A stretch of DNA of 38,250 nt from a virus, in the IMG/VR virus record IMGVR_UViG_3300025687_000129, positions 1 to 38,250 of that record. One strand, given 5' to 3'. The notes below the pieces were generated by a model, which was not told the DNA's origin, made no database searches, and worked only from the letters and a program-made list of their open reading frames with translations. Shown here piece after piece: positions 8,757 through 37,802 of this stretch (the stretch's first letter is position 1; each line of letters starts with the position of its first letter). A program made the position numbers and the translations under genes.

Positions 8757-8915
8757 CTGGCCCTCCCAGTCGGCGTTATCACAACGGCGTTTCTGAGCCC
8801 CAAATGGTTTGTCAGCCTTCCCTCCCACTCGTTCGAATCGGTTCAGGTTGTCGACAGTGACGAGCTGTCAGCAGCAAACAAGTGGGTCATGCTGCTTGCG
8901 TACGTCAATTGCAAT

Positions 8916-9191
8916 CTAATCCGAATGAATCTCCACTTGGTCGTTAGTGACAGACAAGATGTAACCAACACGGAAGAACTGCATTGACTGTGCTGTCTTG
9001 CTGTACACGGAATCGAACTCGGTATCCTCCTTGACTGTGTACGAACGAAACGTTTTCTCACCACCACGTTTCACCAGCGCCTTGGTTCCTTTCCTGACGA
9101 AATACACCGGCTTCGATGGTGTTGGCTTTGCACCGGGATAAACCGTCTCAGTGCGATTGCGTTGTTGTTCGCTCCCTGTCCAGTCGCTCAA
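8916..9191 (-). CDS. Hypothetical protein, 91 residues
   Basis: Starts with TTG overlapping the helicase stop (TTGA). The N-terminus is polar; the middle (about 28-60) is a basic beta-rich segment. It could be a small DNA-binding or helicase accessory protein by position, but nothing in the sequence proves it. Confidence 0.5.
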   Translation of the reverse strand: MSDWTGSEQQRNRTETVYPGAKPTPSKPVYFVRKGTKALVKRGGEKTFRSYTVKEDTEFDSVYSKTAQSMQFFRVGYILSVTNDQVEIHSD

Positions 9192-10804
9192 AACGGCACC
9201 TCCTCAGTTACTCGTTGCGGTTGTCCTGCACCTTCCATCTGTGCAATGTGCTGTTGCAGTTCAGGCCGGTCCAGATTCTCTTTCATCCATCTCACATAAC
9301 CACGCGGAATCTCACTGAGCTTTTTCCCAGCGTGCTTACCAAACGTGACAATGTAGTCTTTGCCAGTGCCGTTCTTGAGCTTGGTAATCACCGCTCCGGC
9401 CTGTCGCTTCGTGTATCCTGTTGCCGTTTCCGCTGACACGCCCAACTTCATGAGCAGATTGACCTGCTTCTGGCTCGCCATGTCGTGTGTTGGCCGGTAA
9501 TCAGTGAACGGATCAAACTGCTGACCACCAAACAAATCAACATCATGCGCAGAGTATTCACCCGACTCCGCATAGGTCCGCGTTTCCAGTCGTTGGCGTC
9601 TGCGTTCTTCCGCTCGTTTCTCTTTCTCTTCGCGGGCCTGCTTGGCTTTCTCAAACAGCTCCTGCATGTCGACCGCTTCACCTGACTTGCGAGCCATCTG
9701 AACAGCCATCGACACGTCAGCTTCCACGGTTTCGCCAGCGAGGCAATCAGCCACACTGACCAGCTTGTGACGTCCACTGTTGCCCACGAAATCCAGGACA
9801 GTGCAATAAGGCTTGGCACTCGCAGAAATCGCAGCACGTCGCAGCTCGGCTGTCTTGGGACCGTCCACCGTTCCCGGCAGTGGTCGAGTTCCGCGTCCGA
9901 TAATCTGCAGGTACAGACTCTCTGATTTCGTCGGTCTGGCATTGGCCACGATTGCTGTGTCTGGTGCGTCAAATCCTTCCGTGGCCACCATGCAGTTGAC
10001 GAGAACCTGCGTCTCTTTGTTCTTGTACCGCTCAACAATTCGCTTGCGTTCATCCTTGTCCGTGCCACCAACAATCAATTCCGCCGTGGCTCCGTGGCGG
10101 TTGAATGACGCTGTAAAATGTTTGGCCGGTTCCACGCCCGGCGCGAAGAACAACACTTGCTGCCCGTTCGCTTCCTTGAGTGTCGGATACACAATCTCGT
10201 GCAATGTCTGTTCTTCATCCGCTGTCAATTCCAGGAAGGCACGCGACAAATCACCATCTGCCAGATCCCCGCCCGCTTTGGTTCCAACTCCGCTGATGTC
10301 AAGGTGCTCACACTCCACAAACCGCTGACGAATCGGACACAGCCAGCCCTCATTGATTCCTGTCAACAAATCCATCTCATAGGCGACCGAATCGAAGACA
10401 TTGTGCAGTCCAACACCGTCCGCACGTTTCGGAGTCGCAGTTACACCCAGCACATTCAAATTGGGGTTGCCGCTCATGAAGTGCTTGAGGATCCGTCGGT
10501 AACTAGTCGCCGATGCGTGATGCGATTCGTCAATGATCACAGCACCAAAGTCGAGCGGATTGAGTTTGGTCATCCGATAGACTTTGCCGCTGCCCTTGCA
10601 CTTGCCACAGTCCCCACCCACGCCATTGCACCAGTCGCAGCGGCGGGTTGAATTCAGCGTCTGCACCGTTGAAACAACAACGTCCGTCCGCTTCGGGCAG
10701 ATCTGCGCACCCATCTCAATACCCGCAGTCAGACCAGCCCGCTTGGCATGTCCGACCGCCTGCGTGATCAGTTCCGTGCGATGTGCAATGACGAGAACCC
10801 TCAT
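9188..10804 (-). CDS. DEAD/DEAH-type superfamily II helicase, main part (motif Ia onward)
   Basis: 538 residues from the ATG at 10804. Visible helicase motifs are AHRTELI (motif Ia, residues 7-13), DESH (II, 92-95), TATP (III, 122-125) and QIIGRGTRP (VI). An inserted CDWC...CGKC zinc loop lies at 56-69. The C-terminal 100 residues carry an ASQKQVNLLMKLG unit and then a DUF3820-like end (FGKHAGKKLSEIPRGYVRWM). Walker A is missing here. It is encoded in the 72-codon ORF directly upstream, and the two ORFs overlap as ATGA. The two products together make one ordinary helicase, so this is either a split gene joined by reinitiation or a frameshift. Confidence 0.85.
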   Translation of the reverse strand: MRVLVIAHRTELITQAVGHAKRAGLTAGIEMGAQICPKRTDVVVSTVQTLNSTRRCDWCNGVGGDCGKCKGSGKVYRMTKLNPLDFGAVIIDESHHASATSYRRILKHFMSGNPNLNVLGVTATPKRADGVGLHNVFDSVAYEMDLLTGINEGWLCPIRQRFVECEHLDISGVGTKAGGDLADGDLSRAFLELTADEEQTLHEIVYPTLKEANGQQVLFFAPGVEPAKHFTASFNRHGATAELIVGGTDKDERKRIVERYKNKETQVLVNCMVATEGFDAPDTAIVANARPTKSESLYLQIIGRGTRPLPGTVDGPKTAELRRAAISASAKPYCTVLDFVGNSGRHKLVSVADCLAGETVEADVSMAVQMARKSGEAVDMQELFEKAKQAREEKEKRAEERRRQRLETRTYAESGEYSAHDVDLFGGQQFDPFTDYRPTHDMASQKQVNLLMKLGVSAETATGYTKRQAGAVITKLKNGTGKDYIVTFGKHAGKKLSEIPRGYVRWMKENLDRPELQQHIAQMEGAGQPQRVTEEVPF

Positions 10805-11825: not shown

Positions 11826-11908
11826 CCCAGCACCTCCATAACCACCCAGAGAATCCCCGCCACGATGGTCGAGGCAATGCACGCGTCCTTGAGTTCGGTG
11901 ATCGTCAA
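11822..11908 (-). CDS. 28-residue single-span membrane peptide
   Basis: Starts with TTG in a TTGA overlap with the methyltransferase stop and ends in an ATGA overlap with the ParB-like gene. The sequence is MTITELKDACIASTIVAGIL..., with one hydrophobic helix (about residues 11-26). Double coupling and the membrane helix support a real gene. It also carries the GGAGGT ribosome site of the next gene. Function unknown. Confidence 0.55.
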   Translation of the reverse strand: MTITELKDACIASTIVAGILWVVMEVLG

Positions 11909-12822
11909 AACAGCACCTCCTGCCGTGATTCGTCAATGGCCTTTTCTAAATTTCGGCAGGCGATCTTGTAGTAGCTTGGCTTGAGTTCGATGCCGATAAA
12001 CTTGCGGTGCATCTTCAAACTGCAATAACCCTCGCTTCCAATGCCGGCAAATGGACTTAATACGACATCGCCGGGATTGCTCCACAACTGCAATGCTCGC
12101 TCGATGACATCAAGCTGTAATGGGCAAATGTGCCTTTCGTCATCTTGCTCTCGCCCTTCGCGGTAGTTGTTCAAAGTGCGATTCATCCTTATGTCCGACC
12201 ACACTGGGCTTGCGTACTTTTGCCAGACGTCAATCGAAAACCGGCCTTCGCTTCGGAACTCGGACTCATCACCGATAAATCTATTGAATGCGCCAGATAC
12301 AGGTTCTGGCCTGTCTCCAGGCTTCCGAAACGTGCATAGATAGTCGGGTATCCCTTGGCGACTCATCGATGAGTCTTTGACGATCTGCTTGTGTAGCAGT
12401 CCCAACGCTTTCGTTCGCTGCATCGCTGTCACGGGATCTTTCCATATGCAGACCTCGCTGTGATAAATCCAACCCGCGGACTCGAATGCACGAATCACGT
12501 CACCGCGAAAGTCGCGAATCCCAATGTATCCGCTGTGCTGCTTCGTTGTTGGTAGATTCATGCAGTGCACACTGCAGTTAGATCCCGGCTTAGCGGCTCT
12601 CAGGAGCTCAGGAATAAGAAAGTTAAAGTGCCCCCAAAACTCATCGTCGCTCTTGCAATTGCCCATGTCCCGCTCGCTGTCCGAGTATGTGTACAGGCTT
12701 GCGAATGGCGGGGAAAACACAGTGAACCCAACTGAATCATCAGGTATCGACTGAATCACCTCGCAGCAATCGCCATTAAACAACGAATAGTCATCGGTAG
12801 TTACCTGCTCAATGCACTGCAC
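11905..12822 (-). CDS. DNA N4/N6 methyltransferase, beta class
   Basis: 305 residues. The catalytic motif SPPF is at 37-40 and the AdoMet-binding motif FAGIGSEG follows at 258-265, the order typical of beta-class amino-methyltransferases. FIGIEL (275-280) completes the AdoMet pocket. The middle region is long and probably holds target recognition. The start is GTG with an AGGAG site. The gene overlaps the helicase gene by 14 nt, so the two are made together. It probably modifies adenine or cytosine in phage DNA, protecting it from host restriction. Confidence 0.85.
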   Translation of the reverse strand: MQCIEQVTTDDYSLFNGDCCEVIQSIPDDSVGFTVFSPPFASLYTYSDSERDMGNCKSDDEFWGHFNFLIPELLRAAKPGSNCSVHCMNLPTTKQHSGYIGIRDFRGDVIRAFESAGWIYHSEVCIWKDPVTAMQRTKALGLLHKQIVKDSSMSRQGIPDYLCTFRKPGDRPEPVSGAFNRFIGDESEFRSEGRFSIDVWQKYASPVWSDIRMNRTLNNYREGREQDDERHICPLQLDVIERALQLWSNPGDVVLSPFAGIGSEGYCSLKMHRKFIGIELKPSYYKIACRNLEKAIDESRQEVLF

Positions 12823-14224
12823 AAGATTCTCCTGTTAGCCATGACGGAATTGTGATTTGCGATGTAGCCCTGTAGTCAGCCACTGGTTTTCGACCGTACA
12901 GTTGAGAGAACATGCCATCCCTCATCGCTCCGGTCATGCCTGACATCATTTCCGTGAAATCTGACTGCTTGCGACTCAACGTGTCAGCAAGGTTCGTCTC
13001 GTTGTCACTCATGACGATGTGGCAGTTCACATTATAGGCCTGACCGAAACGATAGAATCGACGGATGGCTTGATACCACATCTCAAACGAGAAGTTGGCC
13101 ATGTATGTTGTGTTGTGGCAGTGCTGCCAGTTAAGACCGAAGCCGCCAATTTTCGGCTTTGTAATTAGCACTCGCTCTTTACCCATCGTGAACGCTTCGA
13201 GCTTGTCACACTTCGACTCTTCAGAATCCGATCCGCGAACTTCAACTGCGTCAGGTATCACTTTTCGCAGTGCATCCGCTTCGGTGTTAGTATCAACCCA
13301 ACACACCCATGACTCACTGCTATTGTTTACTAATCCAGAAATCAGTTCAGCTTTCTCTTCAGCTGAACGCCCTTTTTCCTTGTAGATATTTGTTGCGGAC
13401 ACCTCACTTCCCGCGTTGAACAAAAAGCCTGCATGTGCCACATCGGACTCAACAACGTGCTCGAAGATGTTTAGTTCCGGCAACTGGTACCCTTCGTCAC
13501 CAAATCCGATGTCAGATGGTTTCCCGATGGCCAGTGCCCATGACGATACCCAATTCCAGAAATTTGACTTCGCATGGCCCCTTAATCTCCACTTGGATGT
13601 TTCGCCGCCATCGTGAACAAAGAACTGCGATAGCATCACCTCCCGCTGCATAACCCCTAGGAACTCGCACTGGTTGCCGAGTTCCATGTGATCATTCGGT
13701 GCCGGTGTTGCCGTGGCAACCAGTCGATACTTTGTTTGACTGAACGCATCGCACAAAGCTCGTTTAGTCTTCCCTGCGAAGCTCTTGAGTATGCTCGCTT
13801 CATCCAAGCAAACCGCATCGAACGCGGACGGATCGAACTTATGCAACTTCTCGTAATTCGTGACATTAATGCCACTGGAAACTTCACTGGAATCCTTCAC
13901 GAGCCGGATGTCGCAGTCGATGTTGAACTTCTCCGCTTCCCTCAGCATCTGCGGACCAACAGCAACAGGTGTAAGCAGCAATGACCGTTTGGCACCACCT
14001 TTGCGCACCATCAACCGCAACCAGTCAAGCTCCATCAAAGACTTGCCGAGTCCGCAATCTGCAAACGTTCCGCAACGACCTTTTGCCGCGTTCCACTTCA
14101 CAATCGCACGCTGAAAGTCAAACGCATTTGGGTTGACTTCAGATTCGTCGATGTCAATTCCGCATGACTCATGGCGTCGATGTTTGGACGCAATAAAATT
14201 GTGATAGCTTTCTACTTGAGCCAT
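12809..14224 (-). CDS. SNF2/DEAD-like helicase-ATPase
   Basis: 471 residues. Visible motifs are Walker A DCGLGKS (56-62), LDEAS (140-144) as motif II, TATPAPND (171-178) as motif III, and a C-terminal QAIRRFYRFGQ as motif VI, all as in small SNF2-like phage proteins. It starts in a 13-nt overlap with the 74-residue gene and ends in a 14-nt overlap with the DNA methyltransferase. This helicase-methyltransferase pairing recurs in siphophages. The likely role is DNA translocation or remodelling in replication or in modification of phage DNA. Confidence 0.8.
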   Translation of the reverse strand: MAQVESYHNFIASKHRRHESCGIDIDESEVNPNAFDFQRAIVKWNAAKGRCGTFADCGLGKSLMELDWLRLMVRKGGAKRSLLLTPVAVGPQMLREAEKFNIDCDIRLVKDSSEVSSGINVTNYEKLHKFDPSAFDAVCLDEASILKSFAGKTKRALCDAFSQTKYRLVATATPAPNDHMELGNQCEFLGVMQREVMLSQFFVHDGGETSKWRLRGHAKSNFWNWVSSWALAIGKPSDIGFGDEGYQLPELNIFEHVVESDVAHAGFLFNAGSEVSATNIYKEKGRSAEEKAELISGLVNNSSESWVCWVDTNTEADALRKVIPDAVEVRGSDSEESKCDKLEAFTMGKERVLITKPKIGGFGLNWQHCHNTTYMANFSFEMWYQAIRRFYRFGQAYNVNCHIVMSDNETNLADTLSRKQSDFTEMMSGMTGAMRDGMFSQLYGRKPVADYRATSQITIPSWLTGESCAVH

Positions 14225-14662: not shown

Positions 14663-15496
14663 TTAGGCTTGCTCCTCAGACAGCGTCATGCAGCCGCAAG
14701 TTGACCGCCATTCATTTCCGAAATCACGTCCAGACTCAACATCTTTTCGAAGTTGAAACAGCGGATAAGGCTTTGTCTCACCGTTGCGACGGTCACGATT
14801 GACTGTGAATCCGGTTTTGTTGAAGAACTTTTTTTCGCGTTGCTCGCAGTACTTGAAGTGCTCGGGGTTGTCGTGCAGTAATCCAGACCACTGCTTGAGA
14901 CCAGCTAAAATGCATCCACCATTGCAGTTGTCGTGGCTGTATCCGTTTCGGTAGGCTTCACTAACTGGCAACCCATACCGTTCCAGTTCTGCGATGATGC
15001 CGCACGCAGAGAGTCGAGGCCGCACATTCAAGGGAAAAAAGCATTGATATGGAGACAGTTTTCGTTGCAGTCGCACCTGTCTATCGAGTCGTTCTTCGTA
15101 CGTCAGGCCAGTAGCTATCACACATGAGTCAGGACTGAAGTTTTGCTTGGTCCACTTATCAAGAGGCTTTTGCTTCAATTCAACAGATGCCTTGCAGGCG
15201 CCTGTTACAGATATTCGCGACACTCCCGTTTCATCAAACACGTCCCAAATATCCTTTCCTTGATTGAGCCTTGTGACTGTGACACCAGACAACTTTTCAA
15301 CCGCGTCAACCAAAGCGTAGGCATCGTCTGACTCACTGTTGGTGTCCGCAAAAACAATCGACACTTGATCGCCGAACCATTCAGCACAACGCATTGCAGC
15401 AATTGCTGAACCGGCACCACCTGACAAGTGAACGCAGCAATGGCGGTCAGGTATGTCTGGTTTGTCGTAATCGATGTCGATTTCAAACAGATTCAC
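14663..15496 (-). CDS. PP-loop ATPase, PAPS-reductase-like (first of two)
   Basis: 277 residues. The PP-loop SGGAGS at 25-30 marks the adenylating PAPS reductase/ATP sulfurylase/TtcA/DndC superfamily. Cys101 lies in TGACKASVELKQKP, matching the C...K..P block of phage PAPS-reductase-like proteins. Four more cysteines (CNGGC at 191-195 and CGC at 267-269) could hold an iron-sulfur cluster. The start is GTG in a GTGA overlap with the gene before it. The actual substrate is unknown. Sulfur metabolism is less likely than nucleic-acid modification, given the helicase and methyltransferase next to it. Confidence 0.75.
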   Translation of the reverse strand: MNLFEIDIDYDKPDIPDRHCCVHLSGGAGSAIAAMRCAEWFGDQVSIVFADTNSESDDAYALVDAVEKLSGVTVTRLNQGKDIWDVFDETGVSRISVTGACKASVELKQKPLDKWTKQNFSPDSCVIATGLTYEERLDRQVRLQRKLSPYQCFFPLNVRPRLSACGIIAELERYGLPVSEAYRNGYSHDNCNGGCILAGLKQWSGLLHDNPEHFKYCEQREKKFFNKTGFTVNRDRRNGETKPYPLFQLRKDVESGRDFGNEWRSTCGCMTLSEEQA

Positions 15497-16049: not shown

Positions 16050-16925
16050 TCAATCCGCTCCCACTTCGCATGTTTCCCCGCATGATGATTGGCGATCCCA
16101 CTCGTCCTCGTATCCTTGAATTTCCCAATGCTCAAACAGCCTTGGTTCATGTGGATCGATAGTGTCTCGATATGGTCGAAAGCTCGCGTTTTTGGCATTT
16201 TCGATGAGTTGCTCAGTGGGTGTGTTTTCGCGGAAAAACACACGGCCCGACTCTGGATAATCACGCTCCATGCGGGCTGGAAAATCAAACACATCCGGTG
16301 ACTCATTGGCGAGTGTGTACAGTTTGCGTTTCGATTTCTTCCAGCACCAAACACAGTTACCGTAAGCGTCGGATGGCAGTTTTAGGTCCCAATCAAATTG
16401 GGCCATGAAACGGTTGACGCTGTCTTTTGTCCAACCTTCTCGGATGAGCGGATAAATAAACCGCCTTTGCGTTGCCATGGCGCTGCGCCTGTCGGCCTCA
16501 TCAGCACGAATACCGATGGCAACGTCATAGCTCCCCTTACTCCAACCAATCGCACGCCTGTATGAAATCATTGGCTCCTCTTTTAGACGTGACGTGCATT
16601 GGGGATGCGTTGTGCAGAAAATGCCATGCTTTTTAATTGCCGCTTCGAACGGTTCGCCGTTGCGGCTTGCTGATTCAAAATCAACAATCTTGGCTGTTGG
16701 TCCTTTGCCAAGTTTGTGAAATTCCGCCTCAATCCAAACAACTCGACCGCTGGCGAAGTTCTTGTCAACAGCATCCACAAACCGCAGCGTTTCCTCGTGC
16801 TCGCAACCCGTATTGGCAAACGTAATGCAGATGTCATGTGTTTTGTCGTACAGGTCGAGGCAGCGATTAAGCATCACTGCCGATGACCGTCCTCCGCTAA
16901 ACGAAATGGCAAGTCGCGGCTTCAT
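16050..16925 (-). CDS. PP-loop ATPase, PAPS-reductase-like (second of two)
   Basis: 291 residues. PP-loop SGGRSS is at 10-15. CTTHPQCTSRLKEEP corresponds to the conserved C...K..P block, IGIRADEADRR follows, and GNCVWCWKKSKRKL supplies a CxxC pair. All are typical of phage-encoded COG0175 proteins. The ribosome site AGGGAG precedes the ATG. It is only distantly similar to the other PP-loop gene of this genome, so this looks like two separate acquisitions or an old duplication. Its probable chemistry is ATP-dependent adenylation or thiolation of an unknown substrate. Confidence 0.8.
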   Translation of the reverse strand: MKPRLAISFSGGRSSAVMLNRCLDLYDKTHDICITFANTGCEHEETLRFVDAVDKNFASGRVVWIEAEFHKLGKGPTAKIVDFESASRNGEPFEAAIKKHGIFCTTHPQCTSRLKEEPMISYRRAIGWSKGSYDVAIGIRADEADRRSAMATQRRFIYPLIREGWTKDSVNRFMAQFDWDLKLPSDAYGNCVWCWKKSKRKLYTLANESPDVFDFPARMERDYPESGRVFFRENTPTEQLIENAKNASFRPYRDTIDPHEPRLFEHWEIQGYEDEWDRQSSCGETCEVGAD

Positions 16926-17000: not shown

Positions 17001-17180
17001 TTACTGTTCAAATCTCCTCAGTGCCATGTAAATCGCCGTGGAAATCTCATCCACCTGCTGTTGGTTTCCGTCGCGAATCAGTTGGCAGCACAGATTACCG
17101 AGCTGCAACACTTCGGATTTACTGGTTGCGTCGCGTAGGGCTTGCTTGGCCTTGGCGATGCGTGTGGTGATGTCCTTCAT
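17001..17180 (-). CDS. Hypothetical helical protein, 59 residues
   Basis: MKDITTRIAKAKQALRDATS... is a charged helical protein with a CC pair in the middle. The ATG overlaps the stop of the gene upstream (ATGA). No family is recognised. The coupling supports a real gene. Confidence 0.55.
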   Translation of the reverse strand: MKDITTRIAKAKQALRDATSKSEVLQLGNLCCQLIRDGNQQQVDEISTAIYMALRRFEQ

Positions 17181-17587
17181 TTTGTCAAGTCCACTCCCAG
17201 ATGTTGCTTTTGGATGAGTGGCTTCGCGTTGCCTTCTGGAACCCGCACACGAACTGCAATGACATCCTTTTGTCCAAGCCAGTCGCCTTTCACTGGGTAA
17301 AGCGTGAGCTTTTGCCCGACCATCTTTTCGCGGTCGTTAGTTTTCAATGCAGCCTTGAGCAACCTCACGTTTGATTTACGCAGCACAGCTACCTTGGTTG
17401 TCTCGACAAAGTGAACTGGATAACCCTCTATCACTTGGCCTTGCTTGGACTTCATTGAATTCTCGTCGCCAACTGATTTGATTGTCAGTGTGATGTCCGA
17501 CCACTTGCCGCCACGTTGCAGGTCTTCACCGTGGATGAATCGGCTGTCGTCTTTGATGATTTGGTCACTCACGGTCAACTCCATCAT
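17177..17587 (-). CDS. Conserved phage protein of the exonuclease cluster
   Basis: 136 residues from the ATG-ATG at 17587. Blocks such as SRFIHGEDLQ, VGQKLTLYPVKGDWLGQKDV and AVRVRVPEG resemble a widespread phage protein found beside recombination exonucleases (FLKxEDL ... GKKITLYP ... AIRVRxP). Its biochemical role is not known to me. The gene overlaps the alpha-CTD-like gene by about 20 nt. Confidence 0.6.
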   Translation of the reverse strand: MMELTVSDQIIKDDSRFIHGEDLQRGGKWSDITLTIKSVGDENSMKSKQGQVIEGYPVHFVETTKVAVLRKSNVRLLKAALKTNDREKMVGQKLTLYPVKGDWLGQKDVIAVRVRVPEGNAKPLIQKQHLGVDLTK

Positions 17588-17957
17588 GTTTCGACACCCA
17601 CTCAAGTATCTCGTTTATTGTTCCAGGACCTGCGCCCTTTAGTGGTGTCAATGAGGATCGTGTAACTTCTCCGGAAAACTTAAACGCACCGCGCAACAAA
17701 ACTTTTCTTGCACGCACGCTCAACGTTCCTGCGAGACTGCTAAGTTCTGGGATAGGTCGCGACTTATTTAGCCACTGCAACATTCCATCTGACACTGCTC
17801 TCGATTGGTGTTCACTTGCTCGTAGGCGGTTGTTGATTGCGGCCAGCAAATAGTCAGAACTTCGGTAAATGTGCCCTGATCGCCTTTCGTAGTCCTTGGC
17901 GTCAAAAAAACCAGACCATGACCGCGTGAGATATTCGCCAAGTTCGGACATATTCAT
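17565..17957 (-). CDS. Protein with RNA polymerase alpha C-terminal-like HhH domain
   Basis: 130 residues. The C-terminal half (about 67-128) reads LSVRARKVLLRGAF (79-92), then SSLTPLKGAGPGTINEILEW (101-120). This matches the bacterial alpha-CTD in order and spacing: SVRSxxxL, a turn, then L....x.GxxSLxEIxxxL. The Arg in SVR corresponds to the DNA-binding Arg265 of E. coli. The N-terminal 65 residues are a separate helical region with no known relative. The ATG overlaps the exonuclease stop (TAATG). It could bind DNA or compete with host alpha-CTD. A generic HhH DNA-binding domain is the alternative. Confidence 0.55.
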   Translation of the reverse strand: MNMSELGEYLTRSWSGFFDAKDYERRSGHIYRSSDYLLAAINNRLRASEHQSRAVSDGMLQWLNKSRPIPELSSLAGTLSVRARKVLLRGAFKFSGEVTRSSLTPLKGAGPGTINEILEWVSKHDGVDRE

Positions 17958-18607
17958 TATGTCAATTCCTCCGATGTATCCACGAACTGAAACTCAGGTG
18001 AGGCAGGGCGCGATTGAATGCACTGCTGCATAACTTTGACCGATTCGAGAAACGCAGGAATCGCTGACTCCAACGCTGCAATCACTTCTTCGTCTCGACC
18101 AACAACAATGTGCATCGGGTGAATCTGCGGGTGCCATGCGTAAAAGTGGCAACTCGTCCGACCAGTGACCCAGAGTGATCCTTGCACCTGCAATCGATAC
18201 TCATCTGGCAATTGTCCGTTCAGTTGATACCGGATCAGTGTCTCAGGCTTTGGACACTTCACCTCGATCAGTTCCGTGTCGCCAATCAGTCCATCTGGAG
18301 AACAGCCGCAATGCTCGTTCAGTTCGACGAATCCAACACGCTGGACTGTCAAATTGTTGGTTCGTTCGAACTCAGCAATCGCGTAGTCTTCGGCCTCCAT
18401 GCCGTATTGCATCCAGTATGTTGGTGCGAACTGTGGCGATTCGATCTCTAATCGCTCAGCCACTAATTCAGCCGCGTAGTTCTCAGCAGACTTGGACAGC
18501 TTCAACGTCTTTGCAGTCACAATATCCTTGAACCGTGACGCCGTTGCTTTGCCTTTGCGGATCTGCTCCCACTGTTCGGAGCCTTGCAAGAAAGTGTGGA
18601 TTTTCAC
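17957..18607 (-). CDS. Lambda-type exonuclease (YqaJ family)
   Basis: 216 residues from a GTG overlapping the previous stop (GTGA). This gives the usual family start MKIHTFLQGSEQWEQIR. The catalytic core is visible: GMEAED near 69-74, GCSPDG with Asp105, and E115-V-K117 in LIEVKCPKP. QVQGSLWVTG at 140-149 is the conserved Q-rich helix. It degrades one strand of double-stranded DNA for phage recombination. No classic RecT/Beta partner is recognised. The neighbouring 136-residue protein is a candidate for part of this pathway. Confidence 0.9.
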   Translation of the reverse strand: MKIHTFLQGSEQWEQIRKGKATASRFKDIVTAKTLKLSKSAENYAAELVAERLEIESPQFAPTYWMQYGMEAEDYAIAEFERTNNLTVQRVGFVELNEHCGCSPDGLIGDTELIEVKCPKPETLIRYQLNGQLPDEYRLQVQGSLWVTGRTSCHFYAWHPQIHPMHIVVGRDEEVIAALESAIPAFLESVKVMQQCIQSRPASPEFQFVDTSEELT

Positions 18608-18885
18608 AGTGTTTGCTCCCATTTCCCAGAACGCAGTTCCCACTCATTCCCATCATCCGTTGGCGATTGACCTGGTGATGCCAAGTTCAAATACAACGTT
18701 CCATCTGGAGTCATCCCCATCGAAACGCTTGATTCACCTGCTGGATGCGGGATTGTTATTTCCATGTGGCCATCGAGAAGAGATATATGTATTTCACACG
18801 CACAGAACGCAGCCAACTCGTCGAGATAACTGTCACCCTCAAGTAGAAACCGCCCTTTCCATTCCTCAGTTCGGTGATTGCTCAT
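18604..18885 (-). CDS. Hypothetical protein, 93 residues
   Basis: MSNHRTEEWKGRFLLEG..., a beta-rich small protein (MEITIPHPAGESSVSMGM). It is coupled by 4-nt overlaps at both ends, in the recombination operon. No family is recognised. Confidence 0.5.
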   Translation of the reverse strand: MSNHRTEEWKGRFLLEGDSYLDELAAFCACEIHISLLDGHMEITIPHPAGESSVSMGMTPDGTLYLNLASPGQSPTDDGNEWELRSGKWEQTL

Positions 18886-19531: not shown

Positions 19532-19869
19532 CGCTTGGCCTCCAGGTGTTGCTTAATTCGTCGGCTAATAACTTGGTCATCGCACTGCATCGCCTGAGCA
19601 ATTCGACGTTGTGTATGTCCGGCTTTTTTTAATTCCATGATGCACGTTATTTGGCACTCACGGACCAGCTCGACATACCCGTCCTTATCTAGTGGGTGGC
19701 GGCTTTGCGTCTTGTTTCCATCGAACCTGAAGACATCATCGAGCGGAATACCTGTCGGGTCGCGTTTCAGTTCCATCAGCACCCAAAACCACATGCCGTC
19801 GTTGGCAATGCCGCAGATGAGGTTTTCCGGCGTGTCACGGTCGCGGTTGTTCCATTTCTCGTGATTCAC
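19528..19869 (-). CDS. HTH DNA-binding protein
   Basis: 113 residues from GTG at 19869 (GTGA overlap with the DnaA-like gene). This start removes a long basic extension that is a shadow frame. The C-terminus has a clear HTH (AGHTQRRIAQAMQCDDQVIS, about 83-102). The N-terminal part is a compact Trp-containing domain. Possibly a replication or transcription regulator. Confidence 0.6.
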   Translation of the reverse strand: MNHEKWNNRDRDTPENLICGIANDGMWFWVLMELKRDPTGIPLDDVFRFDGNKTQSRHPLDKDGYVELVRECQITCIMELKKAGHTQRRIAQAMQCDDQVISRRIKQHLEAKR

Positions 19870-20141
19870 TTTGCGTTCCTTGCTAGATGCGAGACTGTTG
19901 ATCGCGTCCGATTGATTGCTTGCCCGATTTCTTCGTGCGTGTATCCCAATTTTGTTGCCTTGCTGATGACGATCTGGCGAATGTGATTCATGCGTTTTGT
20001 CCGCAGTGGTCCGCGTAACTCGCTGATGGTGATCCCGTGCCAGTCGCACGCTGTTTGAATGATGTCCGCCAGCGTGAAACAGGCTGTTGTGTCGCCCAGT
20101 TCAAGCGTCGTCGTCATGTCTGTTTGCACAATCGTCTGCAT
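19866..20141 (-). CDS. DnaA domain-IV-like DNA-binding protein
   Basis: 91 residues. The C-terminal half (about 38-88) resembles the duplex-DNA-binding domain of DnaA: ITISELRGPLRTKRMNHIRQ, then a helix, then GYTHEEIGQAINRTRSTVSHL. The ATPase domain is absent. Such stand-alone domains occur in phages and are thought to bind origin sequences. ATG 20141 is used; a second ATG lies 24 nt further on. The repeat-rich gap at 20858-21087 is a candidate target. Confidence 0.65.
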   Translation of the reverse strand: MQTIVQTDMTTTLELGDTTACFTLADIIQTACDWHGITISELRGPLRTKRMNHIRQIVISKATKLGYTHEEIGQAINRTRSTVSHLARNAK

Positions 20142-21076: not shown

Positions 21077-21112
21077 TAAACTGTGTCTCACAGTGAATAC
21101 TTGCCGCCAACG
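21077..21112. repeat. 36-nt direct repeat, copy 2 (covers csrA stop)
   Basis: Identical to 20964-20999. Read on the minus strand it encodes the last residues of CsrA (VGGKYSL and stop) and then the dyad. The non-coding copy therefore looks like a duplicated gene tail. Confidence 0.85.
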
Positions 21113-21348
21113 ATCAGCGGCTCATGCTCAAAAAACGGGCTTCCCTGCCCATCGCCATCCATGCGGCTCGCGTCATGCTTGCTTCCGTGCCCTGCCGACT
21201 CCGCCAGCAGCTCAGTACGTACGATGTTCACGTTCTGTGGTGCGTCGAATGCCAGCTTGCAGCCGTTGTTCGTGCACCGAACAACATGCACCGTGCCAAC
21301 GCCTTCAATGGTCACTGACTCGCCAAGTTTCCTGCTAAGTACCAGCAT
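21088..21348 (-). CDS. csrA: CsrA-family RNA-binding regulator
   Basis: 86 residues. It starts MLVLSRKLGESVTIEGVGTV, the unmistakable CsrA N-terminus, and continues with GCKLAFDAPQNVNIVRTEL. The conserved A-P-x-x-V-x-I-x-R region includes the RNA-contacting Arg. About 30 extra residues follow the usual 60 (GHGSKHDASRMDGDG...). CsrA dimers bind GGA motifs in mRNA leaders and block or expose ribosome sites. GAGAGG precedes the ATG. The gene follows the excisionase-like HTH gene by 1 nt. Targets may be host mRNAs or the phage's own leaders, several of which have GGAG right after a hairpin. Confidence 0.9.
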   Translation of the reverse strand: MLVLSRKLGESVTIEGVGTVHVVRCTNNGCKLAFDAPQNVNIVRTELLAESAGHGSKHDASRMDGDGQGSPFFEHEPLIVGGKYSL

Positions 21349-21349
21349 C

Positions 21350-21550
21350 TCATTCCTCTCCCTGTCTGTTACTCTCGATCTCGCCAAGATAAACGTAGAC
21401 TGAGTGCCACGTGACGCGGGTATCCGACCCAACGTTGCGTGTTTCCAAATCACCATTGCGAATTAGACTTTCCAAACCACGTTGCGACACATTGAGGTAC
21501 CTGCGTGCCTCAACCTTCTTTGCTAGTCCTGTTTTGATATTACTACTCAT
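21350..21550 (-). CDS. Excisionase-like HTH protein
   Basis: 66 residues with a MerR/excisionase (HTH_17) winged-helix pattern: VEARRYLNVSQRGLESLIRN, then DTRVTWHSVYVYLG. With no integrase in view it is more likely a transcription regulator than an excisionase. Direct repeats at 21555-21579 lie immediately upstream of its start and may be its operator. Confidence 0.65.
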   Translation of the reverse strand: MSSNIKTGLAKKVEARRYLNVSQRGLESLIRNGDLETRNVGSDTRVTWHSVYVYLGEIESNRQGEE

Positions 21551-31904: not shown

Positions 31905-33203
31905 TTACGCACGCTCTGCGAGGACAACAAAAGGACTGAGAGTGTTGGCACCGTTCTTGGGTGTCAGTTCTGATTTCCACCACGGAGCCCCGGTGTTGTA
32001 CATGTAGAACTTGAAAGTCCGTTCATGATTCACGAACCGCACATGCATGGACTCGGCCTGCTGTGGAGTTGTCGATCCCAACGTGCCCCACAGATACTGC
32101 GACCAGTCAGCGAGGATGATGTCACCGACATCGCCAAGAGTTGGACAGTACTCCGTGAAGAATATTGGCCGACCAAGCAGCGTGTCAGGACGATCGGTGC
32201 CGTTGCCGTAGGAAAACAGCGGACGGTCATCATTGGTGAGCGTGGTGTGCGCTCCGATCAACTGACGTTCCGTGTCGTGGTTGGCAAGCCAGATTGATCG
32301 ACCGAAACGCCAGGCACGTTCCTTCATTTTGAGAAGGTTCGCACCAAGGATCGTGTCGGCTGACTGAGAACCTTCCTTGGCCACGGAAACCGTACATGCT
32401 GCGTTGATCACACCAACAGGATTGCCAGCACCAACGCCGTTGATCTTTTCGTTGAGCATGACGCTGCGGAATTCGTCTGCAAACCCACGCTCCAGCAACG
32501 CAGCAAAGGACACGGCTGAACGCTCCAGCAACTGCTCTGACGCATAGGACAAGCCCATGAGTGCAGTGGCCTCTAGCTTCACATTCTCCATCGCCATTCG
32601 GCTGGCTGACGGCGACTGAGTTTCAGTCGTACGGCCAACAGTCAGACCACCGCTCACGCTTGTAGAATGGTTTTTGTCCGTGCGTGCCGGGATGTTGACG
32701 ACATCGGTTTCCATCGGAATGGATGTCACCAGTCCGGCAGTCGGATCTTCTTCAACAGGCACACTCAGCACTTCGGGTCGGAATCCCTCAGGAACGAGGA
32801 ACCCGCCATAAGTGTCATTGATGGTGCTGTGCTCATCAGAACCGGCAGCGGACAGAAACTTGAGTTGTGGCGTGGTCTGTCCCGTGCGGCTGCAATCCAT
32901 CACTTCCATCAGGAAGTCGCGAGGCTGCTTGTAACCACATTTCGGGTCATCACGCCAGGCGTCGCGAATCTGACCGATTTGCGGTTCATCGCTGGTCGTG
33001 AAACTGCCGCGAACTTCCTCAACTGTCGCCAGTCGATCTTCGTAGCGTTTAATGGCCTTGTCGGCTTGTTCGACGGCTGCGGACAGCTCGCCAAACTTTT
33101 CATCATCGACATCGGCCTCGATTCCATCCTGGAGTGCCTTCGCCGCGATGGACTTGGCATCCTGTAATTCTTTGAGGCGATCGCCTCGCAGTGAACATGG
33201 CAT
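31905..33203 (-). CDS. Major capsid protein, HK97 fold
   Basis: 432 residues. Residues 8-70 form a charged helical, delta-domain-like region (DRLKELQDAKSIAAKALQDG). The body has HK97-family marks: GGFLVPEGFRPEVLSVPVEE, ALMGLSYASEQLLERSAVSF, and near the end PIFFTEYCPTLGDVGDIILA and FVVLAERA. No separate scaffold gene is seen, which fits a delta-domain type. GGAG precedes the ATG. It has its own promoter and leader terminator upstream, which is unusual for a gene inside a head operon. Confidence 0.9.
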   Translation of the reverse strand: MPCSLRGDRLKELQDAKSIAAKALQDGIEADVDDEKFGELSAAVEQADKAIKRYEDRLATVEEVRGSFTTSDEPQIGQIRDAWRDDPKCGYKQPRDFLMEVMDCSRTGQTTPQLKFLSAAGSDEHSTINDTYGGFLVPEGFRPEVLSVPVEEDPTAGLVTSIPMETDVVNIPARTDKNHSTSVSGGLTVGRTTETQSPSASRMAMENVKLEATALMGLSYASEQLLERSAVSFAALLERGFADEFRSVMLNEKINGVGAGNPVGVINAACTVSVAKEGSQSADTILGANLLKMKERAWRFGRSIWLANHDTERQLIGAHTTLTNDDRPLFSYGNGTDRPDTLLGRPIFFTEYCPTLGDVGDIILADWSQYLWGTLGSTTPQQAESMHVRFVNHERTFKFYMYNTGAPWWKSELTPKNGANTLSPFVVLAERA

Positions 33204-33216
33204 GTTCTCACTCCAT

Positions 33217-33280
33217 AAAAAAACGCGGACGCAGAACAGACCACCTCAGCAAGTGAGATGAATCGTTCCACGTCCGCGTT
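33217..33280 (-). terminator. Intrinsic terminator in the capsid leader
   Basis: Minus strand: AACGCGGACG pairs with CGTCCGCGTT around a 39-nt loop and is followed by a run of seven T. The GGAG ribosome site begins 2 nt later. The long loop contains a smaller hairpin (CTCA/TGAG), so the fold may have alternative states. Confidence 0.65.
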
Positions 33281-33345
33281 GCGTGACGTTGTATGTGTTG
33301 TGGAGAAATGCCGACCGGATGCCGTATCAGCTATTTCAGGTGATT

Positions 33346-33373
33346 AGTGTACGCCTGTGCGTGTGCGTGTCAA
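33346..33373 (-). promoter_or_regulatory. Promoter in front of the capsid gene
   Basis: Minus strand: -35 TTGACA (perfect), 16-nt spacer, -10 TACACT (4/6). It lies just after the protease stop and drives a leader of about 135 nt that contains the terminator. Confidence 0.55.
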
Positions 33374-33375
33374 GA

Positions 33376-34263
33376 TTAATATAAACTGGCTGCATATGCC
33401 TGCCGCTGCCGCTTACGTTTGCGGTTGGACTGTGCCGCTGTGACATGCTCATTCAGCACTTGCTCGAAAGTGGCAATGCGGTCGACCATGCCACGTTGAA
33501 GCAACTGCTCAGCTCCGTAACTGCGACCCTGACCGAACTTGTCCAGAACCTGATCCACGCTGACACCTCGCCCACGAGCCACATTAGCCACGAATGGCTC
33601 ATAGTAGGAATCAACAATCGATTGCAGGTGATCGCGGTGCTCTTCACTGAGCGATGTCTGCCAGCCTTCGGCTTTGTTCTCGCCTGCAGTGATATACTCG
33701 ACACGATAGCCAGCCTTTTCGGTGGCTTCGGAATCGTCCACATGCGGCAGGATGACACCGATGGAACCGGCCATACCAGACGGAATCACCACCAACTCGT
33801 CGGCCTGCGAGGCGATGTGGTAGGCTGCTGAATGAGCTTCGGCGTTCGCCACTGCCGTGACTGGTTTGACCCCACGCGCTGCAAACACAGCATCGGCTGC
33901 CTCCTGTGTGCCAAACACGCTGCCACCTGGTGAGTCGACATCAAGCACAATCGATGCAATGCGTTCGTCCTGCACTGCCTGATTGAACACCTGCGTGAAC
34001 TCGGATGTCGACAAACCACCCGACGTGAACAGGCTGGGGCGGTGTGACAGCGTGCCATGCAGGCCAATCACTGCCACGCCTTGCCGCTGTCCTGTGCGTT
34101 CTTCTCTGGCTGCGTTGACCGCTTCGAGTTGTTCGCGGAGCTCGCTGGACATCTTCACGCCAGCATCGCGTGCTTCCACGATGCCGATGATGGTTTCCAG
34201 TTTGGCCCGCGTGATCGCCCACGGTGTTGCACAAACTTCGCTGATGATGTTGGAATACTTCAT
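33376..34263 (-). CDS. Prohead protease, S49 (SppA-like)
   Basis: 295 residues from an ATGA overlap with the portal stop, which is preferred to a start 22 codons earlier. GLHGTLSHRPSLFTSGG and VLDVDSPGGSVFG are the SppA core. The nucleophile Ser sits in AEAHSAAYHIASQAD, and AGSIGVILPHVD follows. The end is Gln- and Arg-rich. It cleaves the capsid delta region during head maturation. It is placed between portal and capsid as usual. Confidence 0.85.
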   Translation of the reverse strand: MKYSNIISEVCATPWAITRAKLETIIGIVEARDAGVKMSSELREQLEAVNAAREERTGQRQGVAVIGLHGTLSHRPSLFTSGGLSTSEFTQVFNQAVQDERIASIVLDVDSPGGSVFGTQEAADAVFAARGVKPVTAVANAEAHSAAYHIASQADELVVIPSGMAGSIGVILPHVDDSEATEKAGYRVEYITAGENKAEGWQTSLSEEHRDHLQSIVDSYYEPFVANVARGRGVSVDQVLDKFGQGRSYGAEQLLQRGMVDRIATFEQVLNEHVTAAQSNRKRKRQRQAYAASLY

Positions 34264-35846
34264 AGGACAAGCCCTTTCAGTGCTTGTGCAACACTTGGCT
34301 GCAATTCCTGTTGATGCTGCATCACCCAAGCGTTGACATCTTCGGTGGCGCAGAGTTGCTGCACCGTCCCAGCCGTTAATGACTGGATTAATGCAATTCT
34401 ATCCGATTCACGTACGCCAAGTGAATCGCAGAATCCATTGACCTGCTGATCCACCCATGTTGCGTGATCGGTGTACCATTCAGCAGCCCACTCATTGAAC
34501 CGCTTTCTGTCCGATGTGGCATGCTTGGAGCGTTTCTCCAGTTGTGCCAATTCACGAGCTGCGATGCGTGATGCCAGATCGTCAGCGTAATGAGAGACAA
34601 TCGCCTGCATCTGATTCGCTGGTGGATCGCTGGTAGGCTGGCTGTCGTGCGTGTTCACCAGCGGGTTGCGGTATTCATCTCCGTGACCATCCGGCCTTGG
34701 ATTCCTGTTTTCCATCGCTCGCACTTCGTCTGGACTCAGCCACTCGTGCTGAATTGCAGACGCATACGCAGCAAACCGGCTCGGAGCGTCACCACGCAGC
34801 AAGCCGTCAACGTTGAACTCAACGAAGAAGCGATTGCGCTGGTAAATCAAATCGCGTCGCATCGCCTGTTCAAATCGCACCAGCCACGGACGTAGCGTGT
34901 GAATCACGAACTGAATCGACAGATGCTCAATGTTGTTGAACGTGGCACGGTCGAGGCTTTGCACCATGTGCAGCGGAACGCGGAAGATGCGACAGATCTC
35001 CTCAATCTGAAACTTACGTGTTTCCAGGAACTGAGCATCTTCTGGCGTGACACTCATCTGTGCCCAGCTCATGCCCTCCTCGAGTACCATCGGCTTGTGA
35101 AAGTTCCCGGCGTGCATTTCGCCCATCTGCTTCCTCAACCTGTCAATAGCTTCCTCTGAGAGGTGATTCGGATGTGATAAAACACCAGACGGACGCATGC
35201 CTTGCTTAAATAACTGGTTACCAATCTTCTCGGCACCCAATGCCATACCGACCGAGCCGCGTGCATAGCCCAGCACAGACTCACCCCACAGTCCATTCGA
35301 TGACATGCCGCACACATGAAACACTTCGGACGAATCAAGCCATTCATCGTTGTCTTTGTCGATGTAATACCGACGCGAACCGTCCTTGAGTTGCTGCACC
35401 TTCTTGATCTTGCGTGGGTTGATCAGTTCGAGTCCTGCGACCGAACCGCGTGGACCAGGAACAATGCGGCTCAGTGCATTACCGCCCAGAAGCAGGTAAT
35501 TCATACACAAATCGTAATATTCGACGCTAGTTTGCCACATGTTCGGCATGGCGTTGATTACGTCGTACAGATAGTGGTCTGTTGCCTTCCGTTTACTGCC
35601 GTCGTCCATGCGTTCGTAAAGATGGCATGGCAGTGTGGCCACCGATTCGGACAGCACGCGGACGCAGCCCAGCACCGCAGACACACGCATCGCTGATTCA
35701 GGTGTCACAATCTCCCCCGAATCGGTCGTGTGCGGATCATTCGAGTACCAGAAAGGATGGCCCGGATTGGGAACCCCGTTTTCGTAGAATGGCGAGTCAG
35801 CGTGTGCGTTGACGCTGTTCGACCTGCCTAGCAGAAAGTCGATCAT
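34260..35846 (-). CDS. Portal protein, HK97 family
   Basis: 528 residues. Family landmarks: MRVSAVLGCVRVLSESVATLP, RKATDHYLYDVINAMPN, YYDLCMNYLLLGGNALSRIV, then GVLSHPNHLSEEAI, ICRIFRVPLHMVQSLDRATF and WLSPDEVRAMENRNPRP. The C-terminal extension (about 420-528) is helical and longer than in HK97. The start overlaps the small membrane protein gene by 50 nt. It forms the DNA entry ring of the head. Confidence 0.9.
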   Translation of the reverse strand: MIDFLLGRSNSVNAHADSPFYENGVPNPGHPFWYSNDPHTTDSGEIVTPESAMRVSAVLGCVRVLSESVATLPCHLYERMDDGSKRKATDHYLYDVINAMPNMWQTSVEYYDLCMNYLLLGGNALSRIVPGPRGSVAGLELINPRKIKKVQQLKDGSRRYYIDKDNDEWLDSSEVFHVCGMSSNGLWGESVLGYARGSVGMALGAEKIGNQLFKQGMRPSGVLSHPNHLSEEAIDRLRKQMGEMHAGNFHKPMVLEEGMSWAQMSVTPEDAQFLETRKFQIEEICRIFRVPLHMVQSLDRATFNNIEHLSIQFVIHTLRPWLVRFEQAMRRDLIYQRNRFFVEFNVDGLLRGDAPSRFAAYASAIQHEWLSPDEVRAMENRNPRPDGHGDEYRNPLVNTHDSQPTSDPPANQMQAIVSHYADDLASRIAARELAQLEKRSKHATSDRKRFNEWAAEWYTDHATWVDQQVNGFCDSLGVRESDRIALIQSLTAGTVQQLCATEDVNAWVMQHQQELQPSVAQALKGLVL

Positions 35847-35976
35847 TGATTATCCTTCCGTAAAAACTGACTCCCAAGACCACCATCCCTGCCACAATCA
35901 ACGCGGCTGGAACGCTCCACATTCCGACACCACCGACAAGGCTGATAAAACCGATAATTTCAATCGCTGGCTTCAA
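35797..35976 (-). CDS. Small two-segment membrane protein between terminase and portal
   Basis: 59 residues with a TTG start that overlaps the TerL stop (TTGA). Reads MKPAIEIIGFISLVGGVGMW... with two short hydrophobic segments (about 4-19 and 22-37, VPAALIVAGMVVLGVSF), then a basic tail. Short proteins of this kind are found between the large terminase and portal in many HK97-like phages. Role unknown. Confidence 0.6.
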   Translation of the reverse strand: MKPAIEIIGFISLVGGVGMWSVPAALIVAGMVVLGVSFYGRIINDRLSARQVEQRQRTR

Positions 35977-37802
35977 AATGTCAGGAGTCCTCTTGTTTCG
36001 TACACTGATTTTTGTGGCCTATACTGTTCATCCATTGCCACCGCCAACGCGGTGACCATTGCCACTGGTCCGTCGATCTTCCTGACGCCATCCTTGTTTT
36101 CATCCGACTTCAATAACCGCTTGCGGTCGCCCTGATTCTTCAGGTGGACATTGCCCATCATCCAGTTCAGAACCGGGTTGTTGGGATGCCTGATCTTGCC
36201 CTCGATCGCCATCGCTTCGAATTCGTCAATTGCCTCGTGCAACCCGGATCTCTGGTTCACGGAGATGCGTTCAACTCCGTGCCCTTTGCTGAGTCGATCA
36301 CCGTCATTCGTAGTGGCTCCCTGCTCAATGATCTGAGTGATGGCTTCAGCTTTGTGCGGGTCGTAGGCAAGAGCAACACAATCGAACTGCTTGGCAATCC
36401 GACCAAACTGGTTGAACACATCGCCAACGCTGATCACATCGCCGTGGCTCACGATGAGATGGCCTGACTCCTCCCAATCGGCAAACGCTGCCAGGTCCCT
36501 GTTTTTACGAATGTACTCTTCCGGTGCGATGATCAGCGGCCAGACAATCAGTTCGTCAATTCCGTACTCGCCCCAAGTCGGAAACACGCACACAAACGCG
36601 GTAAAGTCGCGCTTGTCGGACTTATCGAAACCGACCACACAGTACCGGCCTTTGAGTGATTCCCATGTGATCGATTCATCAGCCGACTGTTGCCAGACGC
36701 CAGCCGGCAGCCACGGTGACGACGATTCCTGCCAGACGTTGAGGCGATACATGAGGAAGTCCAGTTGCTCGCCAATCTTATGACCTGATGTTTTCCAGTC
36801 GTTGACAAATTCCGCCTCTTGGATCGTGTGACCCCACGCCGGATTTGCTGAACGTCCGATTTCAATAACGTTGCTGTCTGTGATCGTGTCGAAACTGATG
36901 GCTTGGTCTGCCGCGTACGCCTGATACATGAACTGCCAGTCCTCAATGACTCCACTGGCAACATCGGCCCCGTAGTCAAACTGCTCCTTGCCGTATCCGT
37001 CAGGATTGGTGCCTGCTGTGGAAACCTCCAACTGAACGGGCTCTTTGCGGCTGATACCGGCCCGTTTCACGCGTCGCATGAACGCCCTGTCAACAACGTG
37101 CGTTTCGTCCACCAAAATTGAACCGTTGAAACCTTCTTTGCTCTCCTGTGTGCGGGCATTCGATGATGAAAACGGCTTCATGATTGATGATGTTGGCAGG
37201 TGCGTAAATTTCATCTCGTTCAGATTGACCTTGCACTCAGCCTGCAATTCCGGTGACTGATGAATCATCTGTAAAATGTGCTGGCCTGCAATGTCGCGTG
37301 CTTGCGATCCGTCCTTTGCACACAACGCCACTTTTTGCCCAGGTTCACCATCGCCGCACGTGAGGTAGACGCCAATTGCTGCCAGTGTGGGCGATTTCTT
37401 ATTCTTCTTTGGTACCCACCACGAGGCTCGTCGGAATCGCCTGATCCACTCATCACGCCCTTTCCATTTAGCGAGGTAGACCCATCCGAATAGCCGCATT
37501 ACGCATTCGTACTGCCAGTCGCACACAACGCCAGATTGAACGCCATCGATGTAATGCTCGTGACGCTCCAAGGCGAGTTGCCTGTCAAACTCATCTGGAA
37601 TTGGCCAACTGTCAATCGCATCATCGTGACGACCACGCAGAATCAGCGGCTCCCCGGCGTGGTCACCTTCATACAGCCTGCAATTCCGCTCGATCCACCA
37701 CACGGCATACGATCCACGCAACGGATTGAACTTGCAGCCCTTTGCGACCGCCAATTCATCCGATGCATTGCGAATCCATTTTGTGGTGATGTCGTTGTTC
37801 AT
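35973..37802 (-). CDS. terL: Terminase large subunit
   Basis: 609 residues. The ATPase Walker A-like segment is PKKNKKS at 131-137 and Walker B is ILVDETH at 229-235. The nuclease half starts at CVVGFDKSDKRDFTAFVCVF with its catalytic Asp. The C-terminus contains the expected LAYDPHKAEAI and LNWMMGNVHL blocks. It belongs to the Terminase_1 (HK97-like) group. It pumps DNA into the prohead and cuts it, working with the small subunit and probably with the HNH protein. Confidence 0.92.
   Translation of the reverse strand: MNNDITTKWIRNASDELAVAKGCKFNPLRGSYAVWWIERNCRLYEGDHAGEPLILRGRHDDAIDSWPIPDEFDRQLALERHEHYIDGVQSGVVCDWQYECVMRLFGWVYLAKWKGRDEWIRRFRRASWWVPKKNKKSPTLAAIGVYLTCGDGEPGQKVALCAKDGSQARDIAGQHILQMIHQSPELQAECKVNLNEMKFTHLPTSSIMKPFSSSNARTQESKEGFNGSILVDETHVVDRAFMRRVKRAGISRKEPVQLEVSTAGTNPDGYGKEQFDYGADVASGVIEDWQFMYQAYAADQAISFDTITDSNVIEIGRSANPAWGHTIQEAEFVNDWKTSGHKIGEQLDFLMYRLNVWQESSSPWLPAGVWQQSADESITWESLKGRYCVVGFDKSDKRDFTAFVCVFPTWGEYGIDELIVWPLIIAPEEYIRKNRDLAAFADWEESGHLIVSHGDVISVGDVFNQFGRIAKQFDCVALAYDPHKAEAITQIIEQGATTNDGDRLSKGHGVERISVNQRSGLHEAIDEFEAMAIEGKIRHPNNPVLNWMMGNVHLKNQGDRKRLLKSDENKDGVRKIDGPVAMVTALAVAMDEQYRPQKSVYETRGLLTF

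Follow-up and report, generated by a model that had tools for sequence, protein, structure and literature searches.

An accessory phage gene beside a recombination exonuclease, with a C-terminal domain resembling that of the RNA polymerase alpha subunit

The P0001 gene and its surroundings

The window, the whole stretch of viral DNA analysed here (38,250 nucleotides, IMG/VR record IMGVR_UViG_3300025687_000129), contains a 130-residue protein gene, P0001, wedged between a recombination exonuclease gene and a small conserved gene. All three are encoded on the minus strand. The features of the locus are as follows.

17957..18643, minus strand: YqaJ/lambda-type recombination exonuclease (PF09588, E 7.8e-24; phrog_149, phrog_434)
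17968..17972, minus strand: GGAGG ribosome-binding site, within the 3' end of the exonuclease gene and 10 nt before the P0001 ATG
17565..17957, minus strand: P0001 gene (130 aa), ATG at 17957, TGA at 17567-17565
17763..17957, minus strand: N-terminal 65 residues of P0001; no detectable relative, predicted helical with low confidence
17712..17714, minus strand: codon of R82, equivalent to Arg265 of E. coli RpoA by alignment and numbering check
17595..17723, minus strand: core of the alpha-CTD-like domain, residues 79-121, placed by the match to a second viral protein (P0002, see below), alignment with the alpha-CTD profile and fold match
17177..17572, minus strand: small conserved gene downstream of P0001 (phrog_21613)

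The P0001 reading frame is the only one of the six that is free of stops, and it has the top codon score. Each of the other frames is interrupted by 3-10 stops across this stretch. An earlier note on this DNA had placed a gene at 17565-17957; these coordinates stand, with the gene on the minus strand; in the plus direction the stretch is packed with stops. The P0001 ATG shares 1 nt with the TAA stop of the exonuclease gene upstream, an overlap that, as read from the sequence, is consistent with co-expression of the two. At the other end, the downstream gene begins with a GTG that overlaps the P0001 stop and is preceded, six bases before, by GGAG.

In two IMG/VR sister records, the exonuclease and the downstream protein are 92% and 95% identical to those of the window, respectively. 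In both sister phages the exonuclease stop leads directly to the start of the downstream gene, and the ∼385 bp that are absent correspond exactly to the P0001 gene. The GGAGG site there stands before the next gene instead of P0001. The gene was not found anywhere in the 38-kb sister record, and two relatives that are more distant (65%) also lack it at the same place. Third-position GC in P0001 is 0.45, compared with 0.57 in the neighbours, and every other gene compared has a higher synonymous codon score, although the others helped to train this score, which makes it indicative only. Given the clean absence from close sisters and the atypical codon usage, P0001 is an accessory gene that was probably gained recently. 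Recent gain is a more likely origin than loss.

The wider region is mosaic, as the window encodes two PAPS-reductase-like proteins (16050-16925, PF01507 3e-7, and 14663-15496, a weak match; both minus strand), neither of which was found in the sister phage. A DNA methylase gene adjoins an SNF2-like helicase gene at 11905-14224 (minus strand), both 94-97% identical in the sister. At 19866-20141 (minus strand) lies a 91-residue protein that matches DnaA domain IV (PF08299, 1.3e-10), the DNA-binding domain of DnaA, here free-standing; the sister phage has a diverged copy (33%). A CsrA-like regulator is encoded at 21088-21456 (minus strand; PF02599, 5e-14), and the sister has one too. Most early genes are shared with the sister phage at 85-97% protein identity, while the terminase and capsid proteins (window 31905-37802) show only ∼25%; judged by these identities, the two phages have a common early block and different structural modules.

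A divergent alpha-CTD-like domain

The C-terminal half of P0001 fits the alpha-CTD pattern L-[ST]-V-R ... G-x-x-[ST]-[IL]-x-E-I. The earlier note had reported this pattern together with an Arg265 equivalent. Both are present, but P0001 taken alone lies only marginally above chance, with 14 of 5000 shuffles reaching an equal score against an RpoA-CTD HMM. P0001 did not match PF03118 even at E 10, and the whole protein gave no direct match in Pfam, PHROGs, NCBIfam or the PDB. Weak matches to cytochrome c552 and ribosomal mL43 were rejected as chance. Using tblastn against phages and plasmids, we obtained chance-level matches for P0001 and none for P0002.

P0002, a protein of 194 aa on IMG/VR contig 3300034198_017445, is the sole relative of the domain that emerged from the viral and genome scans. 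The two domains align without gaps, with 20 of 43 residues identical (47%) and a score of 44.7 bits, which applies to a search of candidate stretches and would be weaker against the whole viral collection. They have in common the LSVRARKVL motif, equal spacing to the second hairpin and a T-I-x-E-I-x-x-W-V helix, and in both proteins the domain lies C-terminal to an N-terminus, the two N-termini being unrelated. Unlike P0001, P0002 has a longer N-terminus and an additional C-terminal tail, retains the equivalent of N294 and weakly matches PF03118 (RNA_pol_A_CTD; E 7e-4 for the domain, 5e-3 for the whole protein), at 19.7 bits and thus below the gathering cut-off of 23.8. The contig of P0002 also contains, at 8826-9443, an ORF that by eye resembles CsrA.

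Once P0002 is added to P0001, the alpha-CTD resemblance becomes significant. A profile of the two aligned with the alpha-CTD profile (hhalign) across 45 columns, covering the whole domain (P 5e-5). Its score of 26.6 was reached by none of 150 shuffles, all of which stayed at or below 16.9. By comparison, the helix-hairpin-helix (HhH) profiles of RuvA and Rad51 scored at shuffle level, with equally high values in 27/150 and 8/150 shuffles, respectively. The earlier note had held that a match to generic HhH repeats alone, such as those of RuvA, would speak against its reading; at the level of sequence, this is not what we observed.

AlphaFold2 prediction of the whole protein without an alignment was unusable (pLDDT 48), while a model of the domain aligned with P0002 reached a pLDDT of 70.8. 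Its top structural matches are RNA polymerase alpha-CTD chains (Z 5.5-5.6; for 1lb2_B, Z 5.5 over 55 residues at 2.2 Å), followed by the Rad51 N-terminal domain (Z 5.2-5.3). The structural check suggested in the earlier note hence places alpha-CTD first, but in a near tie with Rad51 and with a match of middling quality. Foldseek on its own returned no match under E 0.001. With profile and fold evidence combined, we consider it likely that the C-terminal half of P0001 is homologous to alpha-CTD.

The N-terminal 65 residues, previously described as new, indeed found no relative in viral-sequence and genome scans with P0001 or P0002. A Pfam match to the N-terminal dimerisation domain, which precedes the CTD in full RpoA, was likewise not detected in this half.

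With the bacterial RpoA C-terminal domain (PF03118), P0001 shares the order of helices and the equivalents of R265 (R82), G296 (G110) and E302 (E116); S299 corresponds to T113. It differs in having no alpha N-terminal domain attached and in the replacement of N268 (K85), C269 (V86), N294 (G108), K298 (G112) and K291 (proline). The sigma-facing determinants D259 and E261 are not retained, and the loop preceding the second hairpin is 3 residues shorter than in alpha-CTD. In RpoA structures, R265 and N294 enter the minor groove, and K291 and K298 contact the phosphates (PMC7822876, PMC5101437). Of this DNA-contact set, P0001 retains R265 only. The loss of N294, K291 and K298, together with the shortened loop, makes it doubtful on sequence grounds that P0001 binds UP elements faithfully.

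Possible roles of P0001

We propose that P0001 is an accessory early gene, which joins a novel helical N-terminal half to a divergent alpha-CTD-like docking domain and modulates early transcription or DNA metabolism. We assign this reading a probability of about 0.5. One lineage would have acquired the gene at the junction of the exonuclease gene with its downstream neighbour. Its product, a helical N-terminal half fused to a divergent alpha-CTD-like (double helix-hairpin-helix) domain, would be translated early in infection, coupled to the exonuclease. The C-terminal domain may then act as a small docking module, through a weak and probably low-specificity DNA contact via the R82 face or through a protein partner. 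Docking would bring the N-terminal half to DNA or to the transcription machinery, where it could modulate early transcription or DNA metabolism.

Among the alternatives, the one that fares best, though still unlikely, is an accessory role in recombination, with the HhH-type domain binding to ends or junctions of DNA and aiding the exonuclease or its partner. The position of P0001 inside the exonuclease operon, with the 1-nt overlap, and the tied fold match to the N-terminal HhH domain of Rad51 are in line with this. However, close relatives have a 92% identical exonuclease and no P0001, and the sequence profile prefers alpha-CTD over RuvA and Rad51.

Somewhat less probable is a true alpha-CTD mimic, which would replace the host alpha-CTD at UP elements or at activators or sigma and so redirect or block host transcription. 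While the likeness of the domain and the retained equivalents of R265, G296 and E302 would suit such a protein, the equivalents of N294, K291, K298, N268 and C269 and the sigma-facing D259 and E261 are lost. P0001 is probably not a faithful mimic acting on UP elements, and mimicry by binding to UP-element DNA or to host RNA polymerase looks doubtful. A slightly weaker candidate is a new two-part factor for host takeover: a module derived from alpha-CTD but devoid of the UP-element contacts would dock on the host's RNA polymerase or on regulators of it and deliver a novel N-terminal effector.

There is only a slim chance that P0001 is a counter-defence or host-takeover gene in a mosaic spot, with an active N-terminal half and a C-terminal domain that is a mere scaffold. 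Its sporadic presence, atypical codon usage (GC3 0.45 vs 0.57) and the exchange of other genes in the vicinity, for example those for the PAPS-reductase-like proteins that the sister lacks, would fit, but the N-terminal half has no relatives. Finally, a spurious or decaying ORF without function is highly improbable: the codon score is the lowest among the compared genes and the one relative covers one half only, but against this stand 130 open codons where other frames have 3-10 stops, a good ribosome site, an exactly gene-sized insertion with overlapping ends and a domain common to P0002.

Alpha-CTD-like modules in phages

Searching with the E. coli alpha-CTD (tblastn) identified Mazun gp26, Goe8 gp5, V16 gp23 and an unannotated gut phage regulator, all with significant PF03118 matches. 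The 141-residue gp26 of Microbacterium phage Mazun, annotated as a DNA binding protein, resembles P0001 in that an uncharacterised N-terminal half precedes a C-terminal alpha-CTD-like domain. Unlike P0001, it matches PF03118 strongly (E 1.7e-13), and we detected no similarity between the two N-terminal halves. In gp5 of Bacillus phage vB_BmeM-Goe8 (210 aa, annotated as RNA polymerase subunit alpha) the alpha-CTD is also at the C-terminal end, but it is near-canonical (PF03118 4e-22) and retains the DNA-contact motif N-L-G. Ruegeria phage vB_RpoS-V16 gp23 (1432-2295 of its record) is likewise a fusion with an alpha-CTD-like domain; in contrast to P0001, the domain is N-terminal and its partner is a MazG-like pyrophosphatase. 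The gut phage protein (865-1857 of its record) combines an alpha-CTD (PF03118 2e-14) with HTH_17 and a part resembling sigma-70 region 4, and by its domain content is an unusual transcription-factor fusion. In BFVD, a Mithril protein carries a similar annotation.

Judged by these domain matches, phage proteins with an alpha-CTD-like module are already known, and P0001 is a divergent, stripped-down one. In the open literature, with most subscription journals outside the scope of our search, we found no paper on phage alpha-CTD-like proteins, and the role of the module appears unstudied there. The repeated fusion of alpha-CTD-like domains to differing partners in unrelated phages suggests a reusable module. 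If P0001 does dock on partners of the host RNA polymerase, it would represent a compact route for a phage into host transcription that does not depend on an RNA polymerase of its own.
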